Shown: one piece after another, positions 8,533-36,667 of the stretch
Layout of the letters: each line of letters starts with the position of its first letter
How positions within the stretch are numbered: position 1 is the first letter of the stretch
Assembly: GCF_041154675.1 (NCBI RefSeq)
Contig: NZ_AP031322.1
Span: 1,859,812 to 1,923,811 of the forward strand
DNA from: Sulfurisphaera javensis
Lineage (GTDB): Archaea > Thermoproteota > Thermoprotei_A > Sulfolobales > Sulfolobaceae
Reading direction: 5' to 3'
Length of the DNA: 64,000 nucleotides
Translations under genes and position numbers: made by a program
The notes under the pieces: model-generated
What the model saw: only the letters and a program-made list of their open reading frames with translations
Told to the model about the DNA's origin: nothing
The model's database searches: none

Positions 8533-9141
8533 TTATATAGACTTATCTTTTTTTGTTTCTTCGTTTTTCTCTATTAACTCTTTTAATAATTTATAGTCTC
8601 TTTCTCCCCTATATTTCTCTATAATTTTTAGGATGGCCTCTGTTTCTTCTTTACTAAGTGGTTTTTCCACTATTTTGTATAATTTCTCTAAAACTTCAAC
8701 CAAAGGCTGTATAGATTCTATATACTCAGGTATTGTTAATTCTGGCAAGGAATTAGATAGGTTAATAATTCCTATGGATATAATATTTAATCCTTCTATA
8801 ACTATCTTCCTTAATTCTTCTATTTGCTGATTCTTATCTTGTAGCTTTAATATTTCATCCTTCTTATTATTTAGTTCCTTTACGTATTCGGCAATCTTTA
8901 ACTTTTGTATATCTAAGGATATCATTGCATCCCTCACTGATTTTGATGTAACATATCTTATTTCACCTTGGCCAAGGTTTACTATCTTAATTAGATCTTT
9001 TACCATTAATTCTTCTATGCTTTTCACTAAACTTTCTTTTGTCATCATGGGTGAAAGTAAAGAAAATAATGTAGAACTATCAATTCCCGTAGGACCAGAT
9101 TGCGATACTGTTGTTAGAACTATCCTATCTCTTTTACTCAT
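8533..9141 (-). CDS. Winged-helix protein with coiled-coil, 202 aa
   Basis: The N-terminal 75 residues look like a winged-helix domain (RIVLTTVSQSGPTGIDSSTL, then SLVKSIEELMVKDLIKIV and GEIRYVTS). A Lys/Glu-rich coiled coil follows (about 85-115), then a helical C-terminal domain with an acidic/basic tail. Three in-frame starts exist (TTG 9159, ATG 9150, ATG 9141). ATG 9141 is chosen because it lies 27 nt from the AT-rich box at 9158-9168. It is divergent from the phosphomevalonate kinase gene and could regulate it; that is inference only. Confidence 0.6.
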   Translation of the reverse strand: MSKRDRIVLTTVSQSGPTGIDSSTLFSLLSPMMTKESLVKSIEELMVKDLIKIVNLGQGEIRYVTSKSVRDAMISLDIQKLKIAEYVKELNNKKDEILKLQDKNQQIEELRKIVIEGLNIISIGIINLSNSLPELTIPEYIESIQPLVEVLEKLYKIVEKPLSKEETEAILKIIEKYRGERDYKLLKELIEKNEETKKDKSI

Positions 9142-9157
9142 GAATTCCATGGAAGAC

Positions 9158-9168
9158 AAAAATAAAAT
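9158..9168. promoter_or_regulatory. Shared bidirectional TATA region, 9141 gene / PMK gene
   Basis: AAAAATAAAAT is the only good TATA-like block between two divergent start codons 48 nt apart (ATG 9141 on minus, GTG 9189 on plus). It lies about 26 nt from each, the spacing expected for leaderless transcripts in Sulfolobales, so both genes probably fire from overlapping promoters. Confidence 0.5.
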
Positions 9169-9188
9169 GAAGCTAAAAAATTCATCAT

Positions 9189-10133
9189 GTGATTTCAGCT
9201 CCAGGAAAAGTGCTTTGGATTGGAAGTTATTCAGTAGTCTTTGGAGGAATTTCGCATGTCATTGCGATAAATAAAAGAGTAAGATGTGAAGTCAAAGAGG
9301 GTGAAAGATTTCTCTTTGAGACAACTTATGGCACTTTTAAAGATAAAGGAAATGAATTAATAGAAAGTGTTTTAACTGTATTTAAAGAAAAATATGGAAA
9401 ATTAACTCCTTTACACGTGAAACTATTCAATGATCCAGAATTTCAGATCAATGGTAAAAAAACTGGATTAGGAAGTTCCTCAGCCTCTACAGTTGCTTTA
9501 ACTGCTTGTATATATGAATCTCTCTTTAAACAGATTGATAAAGATGAGGTTTACAAATTAGCTCAAAGGGCTAACTATATCAGACAAAGAGGTATCGGAA
9601 GTGGATTTGATATTGCCTCTGCTGTTTATGGTTCAATAGTCTATAGAAGATTTAAAGATATTGAAAAAGTTGACAGTGAAATAAAACCATTAAAAATTGG
9701 CAATTATCAAATGCTCTTAGGATTTATAGGAGAAAGTTTCAGTACAGTAAACTCTGTAGCTAAATTCGTAGAAAAGAGCAAATCTGAGGAGTTTAAAAAA
9801 ACTATGAAATATATAGATGAAGAAAATACGATGGCAATAAAACTTATACAGATTGGAAAATTGGATGAGGCTGTAGAACATGTGAAACTAGCTAGAAAAT
9901 ATCTGAATGGATTAGCTGAAAGAATAGTGGGAATAAAGATAGAAGATGATAGAATTAAAAAGCTAATTGAAATTGCTGAGAAAGACTCTTTGATAGCTTT
10001 ATCCCCTGGGGCTGGCGGAGAATCTGTTTTTGCATTAGGAGAAGATTTAACTAAAGTAAAAGAAAAATGGGAGAAGGAAAAGGTTATAGTTATTGAGTTA
10101 AAAGAAGATGAGGGACTAAAAATTGAAGCTTGA
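9189..10133 (+). CDS. Phosphomevalonate kinase (GHMP family)
   Basis: A 314-residue GHMP kinase. The N-terminus [19 protein letters not shown] matches the substrate-binding strand of mevalonate-pathway kinases. The ATP-binding motif is [13 protein letters not shown] and the C-terminal glycine loop is [13 protein letters not shown]. Sulfolobales are unusual among archaea in having a classical phosphomevalonate kinase and mevalonate diphosphate decarboxylase, and the next gene is that decarboxylase, which fits. Reaction: ATP plus 5-phosphomevalonate to 5-diphosphomevalonate, feeding ether-lipid isoprenoids. It starts at GTG 9189, leaderless, and overlaps the next gene by 11 nt. Confidence 0.88.
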
Positions 10134-28539: not shown

Positions 28540-28540
28540 A

Positions 28541-28629
28541 TGGGCCCGGTGGGACTTGAACCCACGACCTCCCGGTCTCTGCCGGGAGTGTTATCAGCCG
28601 GGCGCTCTACCAAGCTAAGCTACGGGCCC
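28541..28629 (-). tRNA. tRNA-Ile(GAT) with 15-nt intron
   Basis: Acceptor GGGCCCG pairs with CGGGCCC, discriminator A. The anticodon stem CCCGG/CCGGG encloses CTGATA plus A, anticodon GAT, with a 15-nt intron (28577-28591) at position 37/38. T loop TTCAAGT. Its 3' end is followed after one base by the ATG of the envelope-protein gene. Confidence 0.92.
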
Positions 28630-28649
28630 AATAATAACATTATAACTAA

Positions 28650-28748: not shown

Positions 28749-29153
28749 GTGAGTATTGAAGAAGTGAATAGATTGCTTAGAAGAGCCCAAAAATTTAAGG
28801 AAGATGCAACAAGATCTTTTGAAGAAGGATATTATGATTTTACTTGCTTTTACGCTGAACAAGCTATTCAATTAAGACTTAAAGCCTTCGTACTCAGATA
28901 CTTAGGTTTCATTCCAAGAACACACTCAATTAGGGACCTACTTTCTTACGTTTACAAGTACACAAACAATGAACAAATCAGAGAGTATGTGGAGGGAAAA
29001 AGGAAACTTATATCGGATTTGGAAAGAAGTTATACGGACGCTAGGTATGGGGATATTGATTATGACAAAAATGATGGAAATGAGTGCTTAAATATTCTTA
29101 ATGAGATATTTTCTTTGTTAGAAAATGAAGAAAGCAGAAGAAATATACATTGA
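28749..29153 (+). CDS. HEPN-domain protein (MNT partner)
   Basis: 134 residues, four-helix HEPN fold: NRLLRRAQKFKEDATRSFEE, then YYDFTCFYAEQAIQLRLKAF and HSIRDLLSYV, ending DLERSYTDARYGD, typical of the HEPN family that pairs with minimal nucleotidyltransferases. In such pairs the HEPN protein is usually the RNase-type toxin. The start is GTG 28749 with a TATA-like AAATAAATTT about 27 nt upstream. It overlaps the MNT gene by 29 nt. Confidence 0.88.
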   Translation: MSIEEVNRLLRRAQKFKEDATRSFEEGYYDFTCFYAEQAIQLRLKAFVLRYLGFIPRTHSIRDLLSYVYKYTNNEQIREYVEGKRKLISDLERSYTDARYGDIDYDKNDGNECLNILNEIFSLLENEESRRNIH

Positions 29154-29529
29154 ATTTGCTAGGGAAAAAATAAAGATCCTATCTTCCTTCGACACTTATG
29201 CTAAACTTTTGTATGAGAGCCTTCTCCGCGTCTTATCTAGATACGGAATAAGAGGAGAAGTTTATTTCTTTGGATCCGTGATTGAAGGAAAATATACTGT
29301 CTCAAGTGATATAGATGTTGCTATAGTGACTGAACAAAGATTAAAGGCTGGACTACAAGCTGAAATACAAGACGAAGTCATAAAAGAAATGGAAAAGTTT
29401 GGTTACCCTTGGTGGTTCCCTTTAGAACTTCATTTCCTTTCACCACAGCTATTTGAAGCAATGAAAAAGGGTGGAGCTAATTTTGTTAAGGCTGAGGAAT
29501 ATCTAGAAAAGATTGAAATGATTATGTAA
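29125..29529 (+). CDS. Minimal nucleotidyltransferase (MNT), HEPN partner
   Basis: 134 residues with the polymerase-beta signature FFGSVIEGKYTVSSDIDVAI, that is G-S-x10-S-D-x-D with the metal-binding pair. MNT proteins are the antitoxins of HEPN/MNT pairs and in studied cases neutralise HEPN by adding nucleotides to a tyrosine. The pair is a toxin-antitoxin module frequent in thermophilic archaea. The two ORFs overlap by 29 nt, supporting co-translation. It looks intact, unlike the related remnant at 20357. Confidence 0.88.
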   Translation: MKKAEEIYIEFAREKIKILSSFDTYAKLLYESLLRVLSRYGIRGEVYFFGSVIEGKYTVSSDIDVAIVTEQRLKAGLQAEIQDEVIKEMEKFGYPWWFPLELHFLSPQLFEAMKKGGANFVKAEEYLEKIEMIM

Positions 29530-29799: not shown

Positions 29800-31208
29800 T
29801 CAGAAAAGGCCTTTAACCATATTGTATATTTCTGTCGCTACATTTTCAACTCCTTTTTCAACAGTTTCAGCACCAATCTCTATATCTTGACCAACCACTT
29901 CCCATTCCTCAACAGTAGATCCAGTTTCTTGAGCAACTTTTTCCAGAGCAGATTGAATAACAGCTACAGCATCAGCAGCAATATTTAAAGCCGAAACATC
30001 TTGACCTTGAGCTTGTGCCCAAGCTACAATATCATCCCATGAGTAAGAGCGGGGTGGAGGAACCATTAAATCAGCCTTGTATTGATATTCACTCCAACTA
30101 CCGGGGGCAGGAAGTTCTGGTAATAATTGTTTACTGACAAAACCAATTAAAGCCTGAGAATCGTCACACTCAGTAGTACACATTTCAGAACCTAAAACTG
30201 GAGCACCAATAATAATAGGGAAATTGGATAAACCATTTTGTACTTGAGATGCTAACTGAATAACAAAATTAAATGAAGGTTCACTTGTATAATCCAATGT
30301 CATAGGTTTATTAGGCAAGGCAAGTATAGTAGGCATGCTAAACATATCTTCTAGTTTTCTCAAAAAATTAAAACCTAGAGTCATAGAGGGTGGCATATCA
30401 CTAATTGATCTTAAATAGTTGGATATTGATGGATTTAATATCCAATAATTAGAAGTAGCATTATAGGTTATAGTTCCGTTATGTTTTGCAATAAAATCGA
30501 AAGAAGTTAATAAATATGCTTGTATTTGCAGCACATAATTCATTATGCCTGCGAATGTTACTACATTTATTAATTTAGAAAACTCTTGAGGTGCTTGCAT
30601 AAATACTTGCACTATCCTTTGCCAAACCGATTCATAAACTAATTCTTCAATCTCTTCGCCCGCTTGATTTAATTGAATATTTCTACAAACTTGATGAACT
30701 GGATCTCTAAAGTTAATCCAATATTGGTTGCCCTCGGCTGTCGTAGGTATAACAACTAAACCAGAGTTAGAATTAAATATTTTAGGAGCTATTGAGGAGG
30801 TAAACTTAGCCTTATACGCATTTCCACCATTATAAATTCTTACTGAGTAAACAGAATTTGCCCATCCTTCATCATACCCTCCAATAAATACAAGAAATGT
30901 TTTATCACCACGGCTAGTTCTTACCAAAATCCCGTGTCTAACAATATGATTAATATCATTAAAGTAACTTCTCATAGAACCCGTATTTGGGTTAACAGCA
31001 CTAGCACTAAACTCATAGGGCGAAATAAGAGATGGATAAATAGCATATACCTCATTTGAACCAAGGTACTTATTAATTAGATTTCCAGCATAGTTTGTTA
31101 CACATTGCTCTTGTTGTGTTATTTGATATATAGTATTTCCTATATAAGATAGTATTCCAAGACCTTTAATACAGATTCTAACGCAGATTGACCAACTTCT
31201 AATGCCAT
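29800..31208 (-). pseudogene. Unrecognised ~470-aa gene with one frameshift near 31165
   Basis: A 391-residue frame runs from ATG 30975 to 29800, but the same frame stays open upstream to about 31190 without any start codon (for example YIGNTIYQITQQEQCVTNYA and EVYAIYPSLISPYEFSASAV). A second frame has ATG 31208, MALEVGQSALESVLK, at leaderless distance from a TATA at about 31228-31240. Joining the two at the AAAGG run near 31164 (one base missing) gives one continuous protein. I do not recognise it; it has hydrophobic stretches and an acidic Ala-rich C-terminus. Recent inactivation, a sequencing error, or -1 frameshifting are all possible. Confidence 0.6.
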
Positions 31209-31556
31209 AAATTATCTATGCAAAATATTTACTTTATGTTTTTAAACTTTTTCAAAAGAATAGATGAAATGGTAAATAACAAAAATCAGTCAAGAAAATT
31301 TAGGTTTATTAAATAATATTCTAATGCAAATAAAGGTAATTCCTTAAAATTAAATTATTCTTCTTTTATTTCTTTCAAGCGTAATGTGAGTTTGCAAAAA
31401 TTGATGTTTAATTTCCCTCTGCTAGTGAGAGTGAAAAGTTATATATTGCAAATCATAAATGGATAAGAAAATTTAGAATTAGTTTGTACATAAATGGAAA
31501 ATAACGTGCAGAGACTCCTGCGAAAATTCATTTATATCGTCTTTCTATAAAATATA
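31209..31556. other. Gene-free gap between two frameshifted divergent genes
   Basis: 348 nt of AT-rich DNA. It holds the minus promoter at about 31228-31240 and, at about 31529-31537 (ATTTATATCG), a TATA-like box 27 nt before the plus ATG 31557. I see no ORF, tRNA or clear repeat in between. Confidence 0.4.
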
Positions 31557-32014
31557 ATGAAGGTGTACAAAATGGATTTCATAGATCTCACAAAGAATAT
31601 TGATATTATTGAAGACGTCGTTAAGAAACGTGAAGAGTTTAAAGATAAGTTAATCAAAGGACAAAGAGTTGAATTTGAAGTGGTGGACCGCATTCAAGTT
31701 GATAATTATTCCTTCGCTTTGTAAAAACTAAAAATGGGCGTAAAGGGTATGAGATAATAGTAAAGAAAGATAATGAAGAATATCATTTCATTGTAGCTGA
31801 AGAAAATAACGGATTTATACCAATCTTAAACGTAATCAAAAAGATTAGTAGAGATGGTGATAAAAAGATTGCAACGGTGGAAAGTTATTACATGAAGGAA
31901 AACCAACTAATCAAAGTTACTTCTGGGACATATGAAATAAAAGGAAATCCAATGAAACAGATTCTAACAAACTATGAACCAGAAAAAATTGAAATTAAAA
32001 AGATAAAAGAATAA
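31557..32014 (+). pseudogene. Unrecognised ~152-aa gene with one frameshift near 31720
   Basis: ATG 31557 opens MKVYKMDFIDLTKNIDIIED and ends at a TAA (31722-31724) directly after YSFAL. One base more in the T run would give YSFAFVKTKNGRKGYEIIVK, and that frame is open for 97 more codons to TAA at 32014 (ending EPEKIEIKKIKE). The joined product is charged and soluble, with strand-rich character, and I recognise no family. It is divergent from the other frameshifted gene, both between tRNA-Ile and tRNA-Ala. Confidence 0.6.
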
Positions 32015-32286
32015 ATAATCATCTATGAATTTACAACAACAGTTTATTTTCTAAATCTTTTAATAGTATGAATTCTTTTTTGTTATGTTTATATATGTTT
32101 TACCTAAAATTCCTATTCCAATAGAAACAAAAATGATATATCACTAGAATATTCTAAGAAGATTGGTGTTAGTAAACTTTAAGATACTCTTTAAAATTTT
32201 AATTTCATTAACCATTAGTATCGATCTTCCACTCGTTCTATGACGACAAAAATTTTAAATTACGTATTGCAAACTATTTATTGACT

Positions 32287-32362
<76 letters not shown>

Positions 32363-35745: not shown

Positions 35746-35946
35746 TTAACCTAGTATTCTTACTACTTCACCGACTATTTTAGCCTTACCGCCTCTTGAA
35801 TATATTAATTGTGTACCACAAGAAAGGCATCTAACTGGAAAAGTAGAATGACTAAATATTGTTTGCTCATTTCCACAATTGGGACACTTAACTCTAAGGA
35901 ATTTGCTTTTTGGTTCTGGGATTAAAACTTTAAACTTTGCCTTCAT
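35746..35946 (-). CDS. rps27e: Small ribosomal subunit protein S27e
   Basis: 66 residues with the four-Cys zinc ribbon [20 protein letters not shown] followed by LSCG, the signature of S27e. It overlaps the L44e gene by 4 nt at its start and is followed after 1 nt by aIF2 alpha. Confidence 0.96.
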
Positions 35947-36230
35947 TTGACCACCTCAACTAGTTCTATCTTTTTCATTCTTAATCCTTCTCTCATTATT
36001 GTATAACCACATTTTTGACATTTTAATACAAGTGTTTGTTTCTTTGTCGTCTTAGCGAATCTTTTTTGTTCTGGTTTTCTTTTGCTTCCATAACCTAGAT
36101 TCTTTCTGTCATATCTTCTCTGACCTTCTGAAAGAGTCCTTCTTTTTCCTCCTTTATATAATGATACTGAGTGCTCAGTATGAGTTTTACACTTTGGACA
36201 GTATGTAGTTATCACTTTGGGAACTTTCAT
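35943..36230 (-). CDS. rpl44e: Large ribosomal subunit protein L44e
   Basis: 95 residues, very basic. Zinc ligands are in [11 protein letters not shown] and LKCQKCGYT. The region [19 protein letters not shown] is the conserved extension near the tRNA exit site. It overlaps gins15 (36227-36230) and rps27e by 4 nt each, so the run is tightly coupled. Confidence 0.96.
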
Positions 36231-36667
36231 TCTACTTCTATTGGAGTTATATAATCTAAGGTTATTAAAGCTAAAACTTGCTTTAACGGAAGCAAAATAA
36301 GGTCTCCAGGGTATAAATTCATATCATTTATAGAAAATTTTACCTTAACTAAACATAATATTTTATCTTCTTGAGTGAAATACTTACCAGAAATAAAGTT
36401 GACGTAAATTCTTTTCATTTGATTTAAAATATCTAAAAACTCTGAATCAAATCCCTTAATGTTAATCCCTTCAATTAGTTTACTGCTTCTTAACTCAAAA
36501 AGAGATTCTGCTAATTCCTCATAAACTGAAAGTTCTTTTTTGTGTAAGTCATCAGAGTATTTTCTTCTTATTTTCCTTAACTGGGAAATTAATTGGTATA
36601 AGTCTTTAAGTTGAATTTCTGTGCTCTCTTCTTTTAAAGTCTCATTTAATACTATTTCATCTAACAT
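36227..36667 (-). CDS. GINS complex subunit, Gins15 type
   Basis: 146 residues: an alpha-helical A domain (about 15-95, [18 protein letters not shown]) followed by a short beta-rich B domain ([20 protein letters not shown]). Its place directly after priS is that of Gins15 in Sulfolobus. It forms GINS with Gins23, which joins MCM helicase and primase at the fork. The start overlaps the priS end by 11 nt. Confidence 0.85.

Follow-up and report, generated by a model that had tools for sequence, protein, structure and literature searches.

A frame-broken gene of Sulfurisphaera javensis and its family beside the tRNA and rRNA genes of Sulfolobaceae

The 64,000-nucleotide stretch of the Sulfurisphaera javensis genome analysed here (the window; NZ_AP031322.1, positions 1,859,812 to 1,923,811) contains a long minus-strand reading frame that lacks a start codon at its upstream end, raising the question of whether it belongs to a single gene broken by one base and, if so, what broke it. 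The frame is open from 31215 to 29803 (471 codons between stops; chance probability about 4e-17, computed at 31.6 % G+C), and its first ATG, GTG or TTG is ATG 30975, reached after 80 open codons and yielding an ORF of 391 codons (29800-30975, minus strand). A preliminary description of a 391-codon frame running upstream without a start codon is thereby borne out, and its coordinates for the natural start, ATG 31208 in the other frame with a putative promoter upstream, are likewise right. The G+C contents of the three codon positions in the long frame (0.457/0.376/0.204) resemble those of a neighbouring AglB-like gene (0.427/0.402/0.199). The parts of the gene are as follows:

31138-31208, minus strand: 5′ piece of the gene, ATG 31208 followed by 22 codons and TAG 31140-31138; its first 14-15 residues fit the homologue of Metallosphaera javensis (M. 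javensis below)
31158-31169, minus strand: interval of the lesion from comparison with an intact homologue, including an AAAGG run at 31167-31163
29800-31167, minus strand: main body in the second frame, with the stop at 29802-29800, ATG 30975 internal and the conserved columns kept
31239-31246, minus strand: TATA-like element TTTAAAAA, 38 to 31 bases ahead of ATG 31208 and read by eye; presumably a promoter element

An intact homologue of 472 aa, encoded in a single frame from its ATG, is present in M. javensis (strain AS-7, AP024487.1; genome G023, locus L003/L096). In BLASTP, it matches residues 5 to 456 of the long frame with 46 % identity, and its own first 14-15 residues align by eye without gaps to those translated from ATG 31208. 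Since the homologue matches both frames in succession, the frame change is placed at about 31158-31169, where the window gene is one base short (or two over) relative to intact homologues; this fits the earlier proposal of one gene with one lesion near 31165 in the AAAGG run. The same match makes ATG 30975 an internal codon and not the ancestral start. Translation from ATG 30975, with an irrelevant upstream frame, would be suggested by the absence of any earlier start codon in the long frame, but residues C24 and P47 and the YPSLISP block, all conserved in the family, precede this ATG. According to the preliminary description, homologues beginning at ATG 30975 would have spoken against a lesion; instead, the homologues carry the conserved region ahead of that codon. 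Judged by homology, ATG 30975 as ancestral start is refuted, and a gene beginning there is hardly credible; a truncated product may be formed from it at present.

The family to which the gene belongs comprises proteins of about 460-500 aa and was found by profile search in 16 of 31 Sulfolobaceae genomes (own genome included). Among 300 genomes sampled from the phylum 12 gave matches, one of them outside Sulfolobaceae (E 3.8e-4, with internal stops; left out of the locus counts). An alignment of 26 family sequences contains 11 invariant and 7 nearly invariant columns, which the window gene keeps. The family is unnamed and Sulfolobaceae-restricted, and apparently undescribed so far as database and literature searches show. 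Searches of Pfam, NCBIfam and PHROGs (26 members) and of PADLOC (five members) yielded no convincing match. The lowest E-values, 0.001 for a PHROGs tape measure protein (3 of 26 members) and 0.0045 for a Pfam one (2 of 26), were set aside, since in our judgement they likely reflect the pairing of helix-rich stretches. Among known transposase domains none was matched, and a new kind of enzyme is conceivable. PDB profile searches gave no support for any relationship (best E 0.51 and 0.14), including a trypsin-like reading of the GAPV...GLAGLV block, which resembles the GDSGGP region; this reading was abandoned. AlphaFold2 (three-sequence input) reached a pLDDT of 34.9, and therefore no fold is claimed. 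A word-based search of part of the literature, a weak negative, gave no paper describing such a family among the matches listed, and the accessible part of a study on archaeal dark matter islands does not mention it (PMC4158269).

A one-base break is by itself ordinary. Recent loss of the gene, sequencing error, -1 frameshifting and phase variation had been offered as its causes; recent loss fits best and sequencing or assembly error comes second, whereas the other two are disfavoured. We consider it probable that the window gene was very recently inactivated by the single-base lesion. The lesion, about 15 codons past the start, would then be a true mutation, and translation from ATG 31208, ending after 22 codons, would provide little or no full protein. 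The preserved family columns indicate that such decay is young; taken together with codon-position G+C contents like those of a working neighbour, they mean that the loss is very recent or that the record is wrong. At least nine of the 57 other family genes and remnants are split or carry stops:

G003, 1229336
G006, C12
G011, 2382057
G014, 914162
G015, C5 116282
G015, C4 2319
G020, C19 419385
G022, 1564581
G028, 1273177

The lesion in the window may be a single episode in the turnover of a cassette which would be copied among stable-RNA loci and decay there. The surroundings of the gene contain a second break:

32286-32361, plus strand: tRNA-Ala (TGC), divergent from the gene and about 1.08 kb from its ATG
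31557-31724, plus strand: first piece of a neighbouring gene of about 150 codons, 55 codons followed by a stop
31706-32011, plus strand: second piece of the neighbouring gene in another frame, recognized from its translation and homologues
28540-28630, minus strand: second tRNA gene (no isotype given by ARAGORN), about 1.17 kb past the 3′ end of the gene

The neighbour (31557-32011, plus strand), located between the window gene and the tRNA gene, is split by a one-base frame change. Its relatives occur in 6 of 31 genomes (own included), with open frames of 153, 147 and 153 aa in G026, G030 and G005, respectively (the ORF in G026 having 149 aa); the relative in G014 carries stops, and that of M. 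javensis, 80 % identical and also beside tRNA genes, is split at a different point. The break of this adjacent gene, whose homologues are open, was counted in favour of a real inactivation of the window gene. A HEPN and nucleotidyltransferase (MNT) gene pair at 28749-29529, situated between the tRNA gene and the window gene, is presumably a toxin-antitoxin module.

The main rival to inactivation is a sequencing or assembly error, in which case the gene would be intact in the organism and one base absent from the record. This explanation is rather unlikely in our estimation, and several observations fit it: the lesion is a lone one in a gene otherwise keeping the conserved columns of the family, comprises one base and is known from a single assembly; the neighbour, too, lacks a single base within a short run, a common form of assembly error; and two lesions so close together could point to a weakly assembled stretch. 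Against it, a scan for frames without a near start, covering the window and 82 kb about the other family loci of the genome (146 kb in all), flagged 11, four of them in the window. Two of these four are the window gene and the broken neighbour, and the other two (8536-9258 and 35946-36323) have a start 33 and 31 codons in, respectively; among the seven outside the window, the one inspected has a plausible start. Genome completeness amounts to 99.54 %. Scan and completeness leave room for a local error.

Slippage in a short run could alternatively toggle the gene on and off. The lesion does sit within a run, and phase variation is frequent among the multi-copy families of other organisms. However, the longest stretch within AAAGG is three bases, no long homopolymer or tandem repeat unit is present, and the M. 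javensis homologue lacks such a run at the corresponding place, rendering phase variation extremely improbable.

Programmed -1 ribosomal frameshifting could join the two frames, as in fucA1 of Saccharolobus solfataricus, and its direction as well as the minimal A-AAG site would be compatible with the window gene. Such frameshifting is reported for this lineage in the accessible part of PMC8211752, the rule given there being an X-XXY-YYZ heptamer in which Z is not G, with a structure 5-9 nt downstream. Like the window gene, fucA1 belongs to Sulfolobaceae and has its reading frames separated by a -1 shift close to the 5′ end; it possesses A-AAA-AAT, a stem-loop and rare codons (PMC8211752). The site in the window, A-TTA-AAG-G, is no such heptamer and has G as its last base; downstream folding is modest (91 nt from 31170 down; z -1.61, with 14 of 200 shuffles as good). 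Moreover, the eight relatives listed are encoded in one frame and need no shift, which argues against a conserved recoding site. Frameshifting is therefore very unlikely, and recent inactivation is retained as the preferred reading.

The window gene is placed between two tRNA genes and in its position resembles nearly every other family member. The 70 profile match rows were merged by hand (tandem copies and adjoining fragments joined) into 58 genes and remnants at 47 loci. In the own genome (G000), M. javensis and G025, where Rfam RF00005 located 46, 45 and 44 tRNA genes, respectively, 20 of the 21 family loci are no more than 1.5 kb away from such a gene, with a median distance of 452 bp, a location as for a tRNA-integrated element. 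About 5 % of each of these genomes is that close to a tRNA gene; 2000 rounds of random placement across the whole genomes put 1.4 loci on average, and at most 7, within this distance, and for a dispersed HEPN family used as control (that of the 28749-29153 protein) only 1 of 21 loci qualified, namely the copy in the window. The 21st family locus (G000, 1973828) is near an rRNA operon. For the remaining 26 loci, ARAGORN or Rfam was run on the surrounding sequence: 16 are 190-1487 bp from a tRNA gene, nine near an rRNA operon and one beside a 3′ tRNA fragment. In total, 36 of the 47 loci are beside a tRNA gene, ten near an rRNA operon (0.45-3.5 kb, measured from match ends, the larger distances being weaker evidence) and one by a tRNA fragment; some loci are orthologous between species, e.g., that at tRNA-Leu(CAG) in four genomes, and hence the independent sites are fewer than 47. 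The nearest tRNA gene is on the 5′ side of the family gene in 14 of 20 loci.

The window gene and its nearest homologue both adjoin tRNA-Ala. An assignment of each clade to one tRNA isotype was dropped, since close M. javensis copies adjoin tRNA-Pro (2213k) and tRNA-Gly (562k). Partial rRNA matches next to some members, which resemble captured fragments, are ordinary rRNA genes with masked sequence. In G014, five open copies and one broken copy are clustered within 16 kb beside the rRNA operon (L061, 4499-19852). In M. javensis (L096, 5953-7371; L147), the gene is located between the tRNA-Ala promoter and TCCAGTGGAAACAGAGGGGT-type repeats, which look like origin boxes, ahead of an orc1/cdc6-like gene.

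Several copies are similar enough to delimit the copied unit. Two copies in G001 share a tract of 1471 bp with 100 % identity, which begins 72 bp ahead of the ATG and ends just short of the stop codon; weak similarity continues beyond this tract at the 3′ end (by eye). Three close copies of M. javensis (2213k, 562k and 595k) adjoin three tRNA genes. The first two share 97 % identity over 69 bp ahead of the ATG, 95.6 % in the coding sequence and 97 % over 33 bp after it; outside the unit, identity falls to about 50 and 43 % in the two flanks. The recent copying covers promoter and gene, i.e., about 1.5 kb. The 595k copy is a mosaic relative to the other copies, with 97-98 % identity at the start of the coding sequence and 96-97 % at its end, but 65-66 % in between. 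This internal mosaic also suggests gene conversion, and the 1471-bp identity in G001 may equally have arisen by conversion between older paralogues and not by new insertion; for the alike copies in general, conversion among old paralogues has to be taken seriously as an alternative to fresh insertion. At the tRNA-Ala site of M. javensis, the gene part is unmatched in five other genomes of the genus. Both flanks are readable in four of them (G025, G027, G029 and G012), where the site spans 136-332 bp versus 1.7-1.8 kb in M. javensis (by subtraction). By eye, the alike copies show no inverted repeats at their borders, and exact insertion points are unreadable because the flanks have diverged.

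We tentatively propose, as a possibility short of a probable one, that the family represents a mobile cassette of about 1.5 kb, made up of a promoter and a single ORF, which would be of a hitherto undescribed kind and be copied specifically into the tRNA and rRNA flanks of Sulfolobaceae without a known integrase; the encoded protein may be the factor recognizing these loci, and the window copy would be freshly killed. The unit would pass from one stable-RNA locus to another, and we infer that it moves by itself.

A serious possibility, also falling short of probable, is that the family represents cargo of plasmids or viruses integrating into tRNA genes by a tyrosine recombinase, the present copies being leftovers. 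According to the accessible parts of two studies, integration into tRNA genes is established for Sulfolobales (PMC3718332, PMC8371274). In G001, a 3′ tRNA fragment about 265 bp from one copy bears the mark of an integration event, and at one tRNA-Gln, G002 lacks 3.4 kb that include the family gene, an 8-bp direct repeat marking the edge. As for att repeats that might enclose the gene, an unsystematic look showed this one tRNA fragment and this one 8-bp repeat in G001. The tRNA-Gln segment (L079, 3091-6501), with TACCTTTT as the 8-bp repeat at its edge, is shared by G001 and G003; the 3′ fragment (L078, 5847-5892) and the intact tRNA gene (L150, about 1193-1279) of G001 are about 45 kb apart, as if a large element had integrated between the family copy and its tRNA gene. 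The family copy itself, though, seems to lie outside this integrated element, and the ends of the copied unit coincide, exactly or nearly, with those of the gene. Around the 21 loci of G000, M. javensis and G025, no PF00589 integrase is encoded at a distance of up to 16 kb, though degenerate or split ones could be missed; the PF00589 matches in these genomes (two, one and two, respectively) come no closer than 16.4 kb to a family locus (by subtraction). This absence renders the cargo reading less likely and the cassette reading more likely. Furthermore, neither 50,697 phage records (tblastn, three members) nor 72,556 plasmid records (tblastn, two members) nor three pattern scans of IMG/VR yielded a family match, records from the own or near genomes possibly being left out in each case. 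The side of the tRNA gene also fits poorly: archaeal integrases favour the 3′ end of the tRNA gene, apart from one group that uses the 5′ half (accessible part of PMC8371274), whereas family loci are on the 5′ side of the tRNA gene in 12 of 20 cases and on the 3′ side in eight (counted by eye). The ten loci near rRNA are a further point against integrating plasmids or viruses. Such elements, the known precedent at tRNA genes of Sulfolobales (PMC3718332), account for some of what is seen; the positions at 5′ flanks and at rRNA flanks, the missing integrase and the lack of a viral or plasmid relative are harder to reconcile with them.

For a family devoid of a recognized domain, occurrence almost only beside stable-RNA genes is striking. 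This association, observed in several genera, would point to a new route of DNA to tRNA and rRNA loci or to a location-dependent function, and the family offers concrete, testable loci with intact copies in several complete genomes.

Among known systems, plasmids and fuselloviruses integrated at tRNA genes of Sulfolobales are alike in being tRNA-adjacent and patchy and in leaving many decayed remnants. The family differs from them in lacking PF00589 within 16 kb (21 loci), in its frequent position at the tRNA 5′ flank and its occurrence at rRNA flanks, and in being a lone gene at the loci inspected, for which no viral or plasmid homologue was found. Ty1/Ty3 and the Dictyostelium TRE elements are eukaryotic transposable elements targeting tRNA genes. 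They too are multi-copy and reside in the flanks of stable-RNA genes, a likeness in the way of working only; with about 1.5 kb, no match to a reverse transcriptase or known integrase domain and no terminal repeats by eye, the family is otherwise distinct from them. Insertion sequences, finally, share with the family the single gene of comparable size and the near-identical recent copies, whereas the family shows no transposase match, no terminal inverted repeats by eye and a strong site preference.
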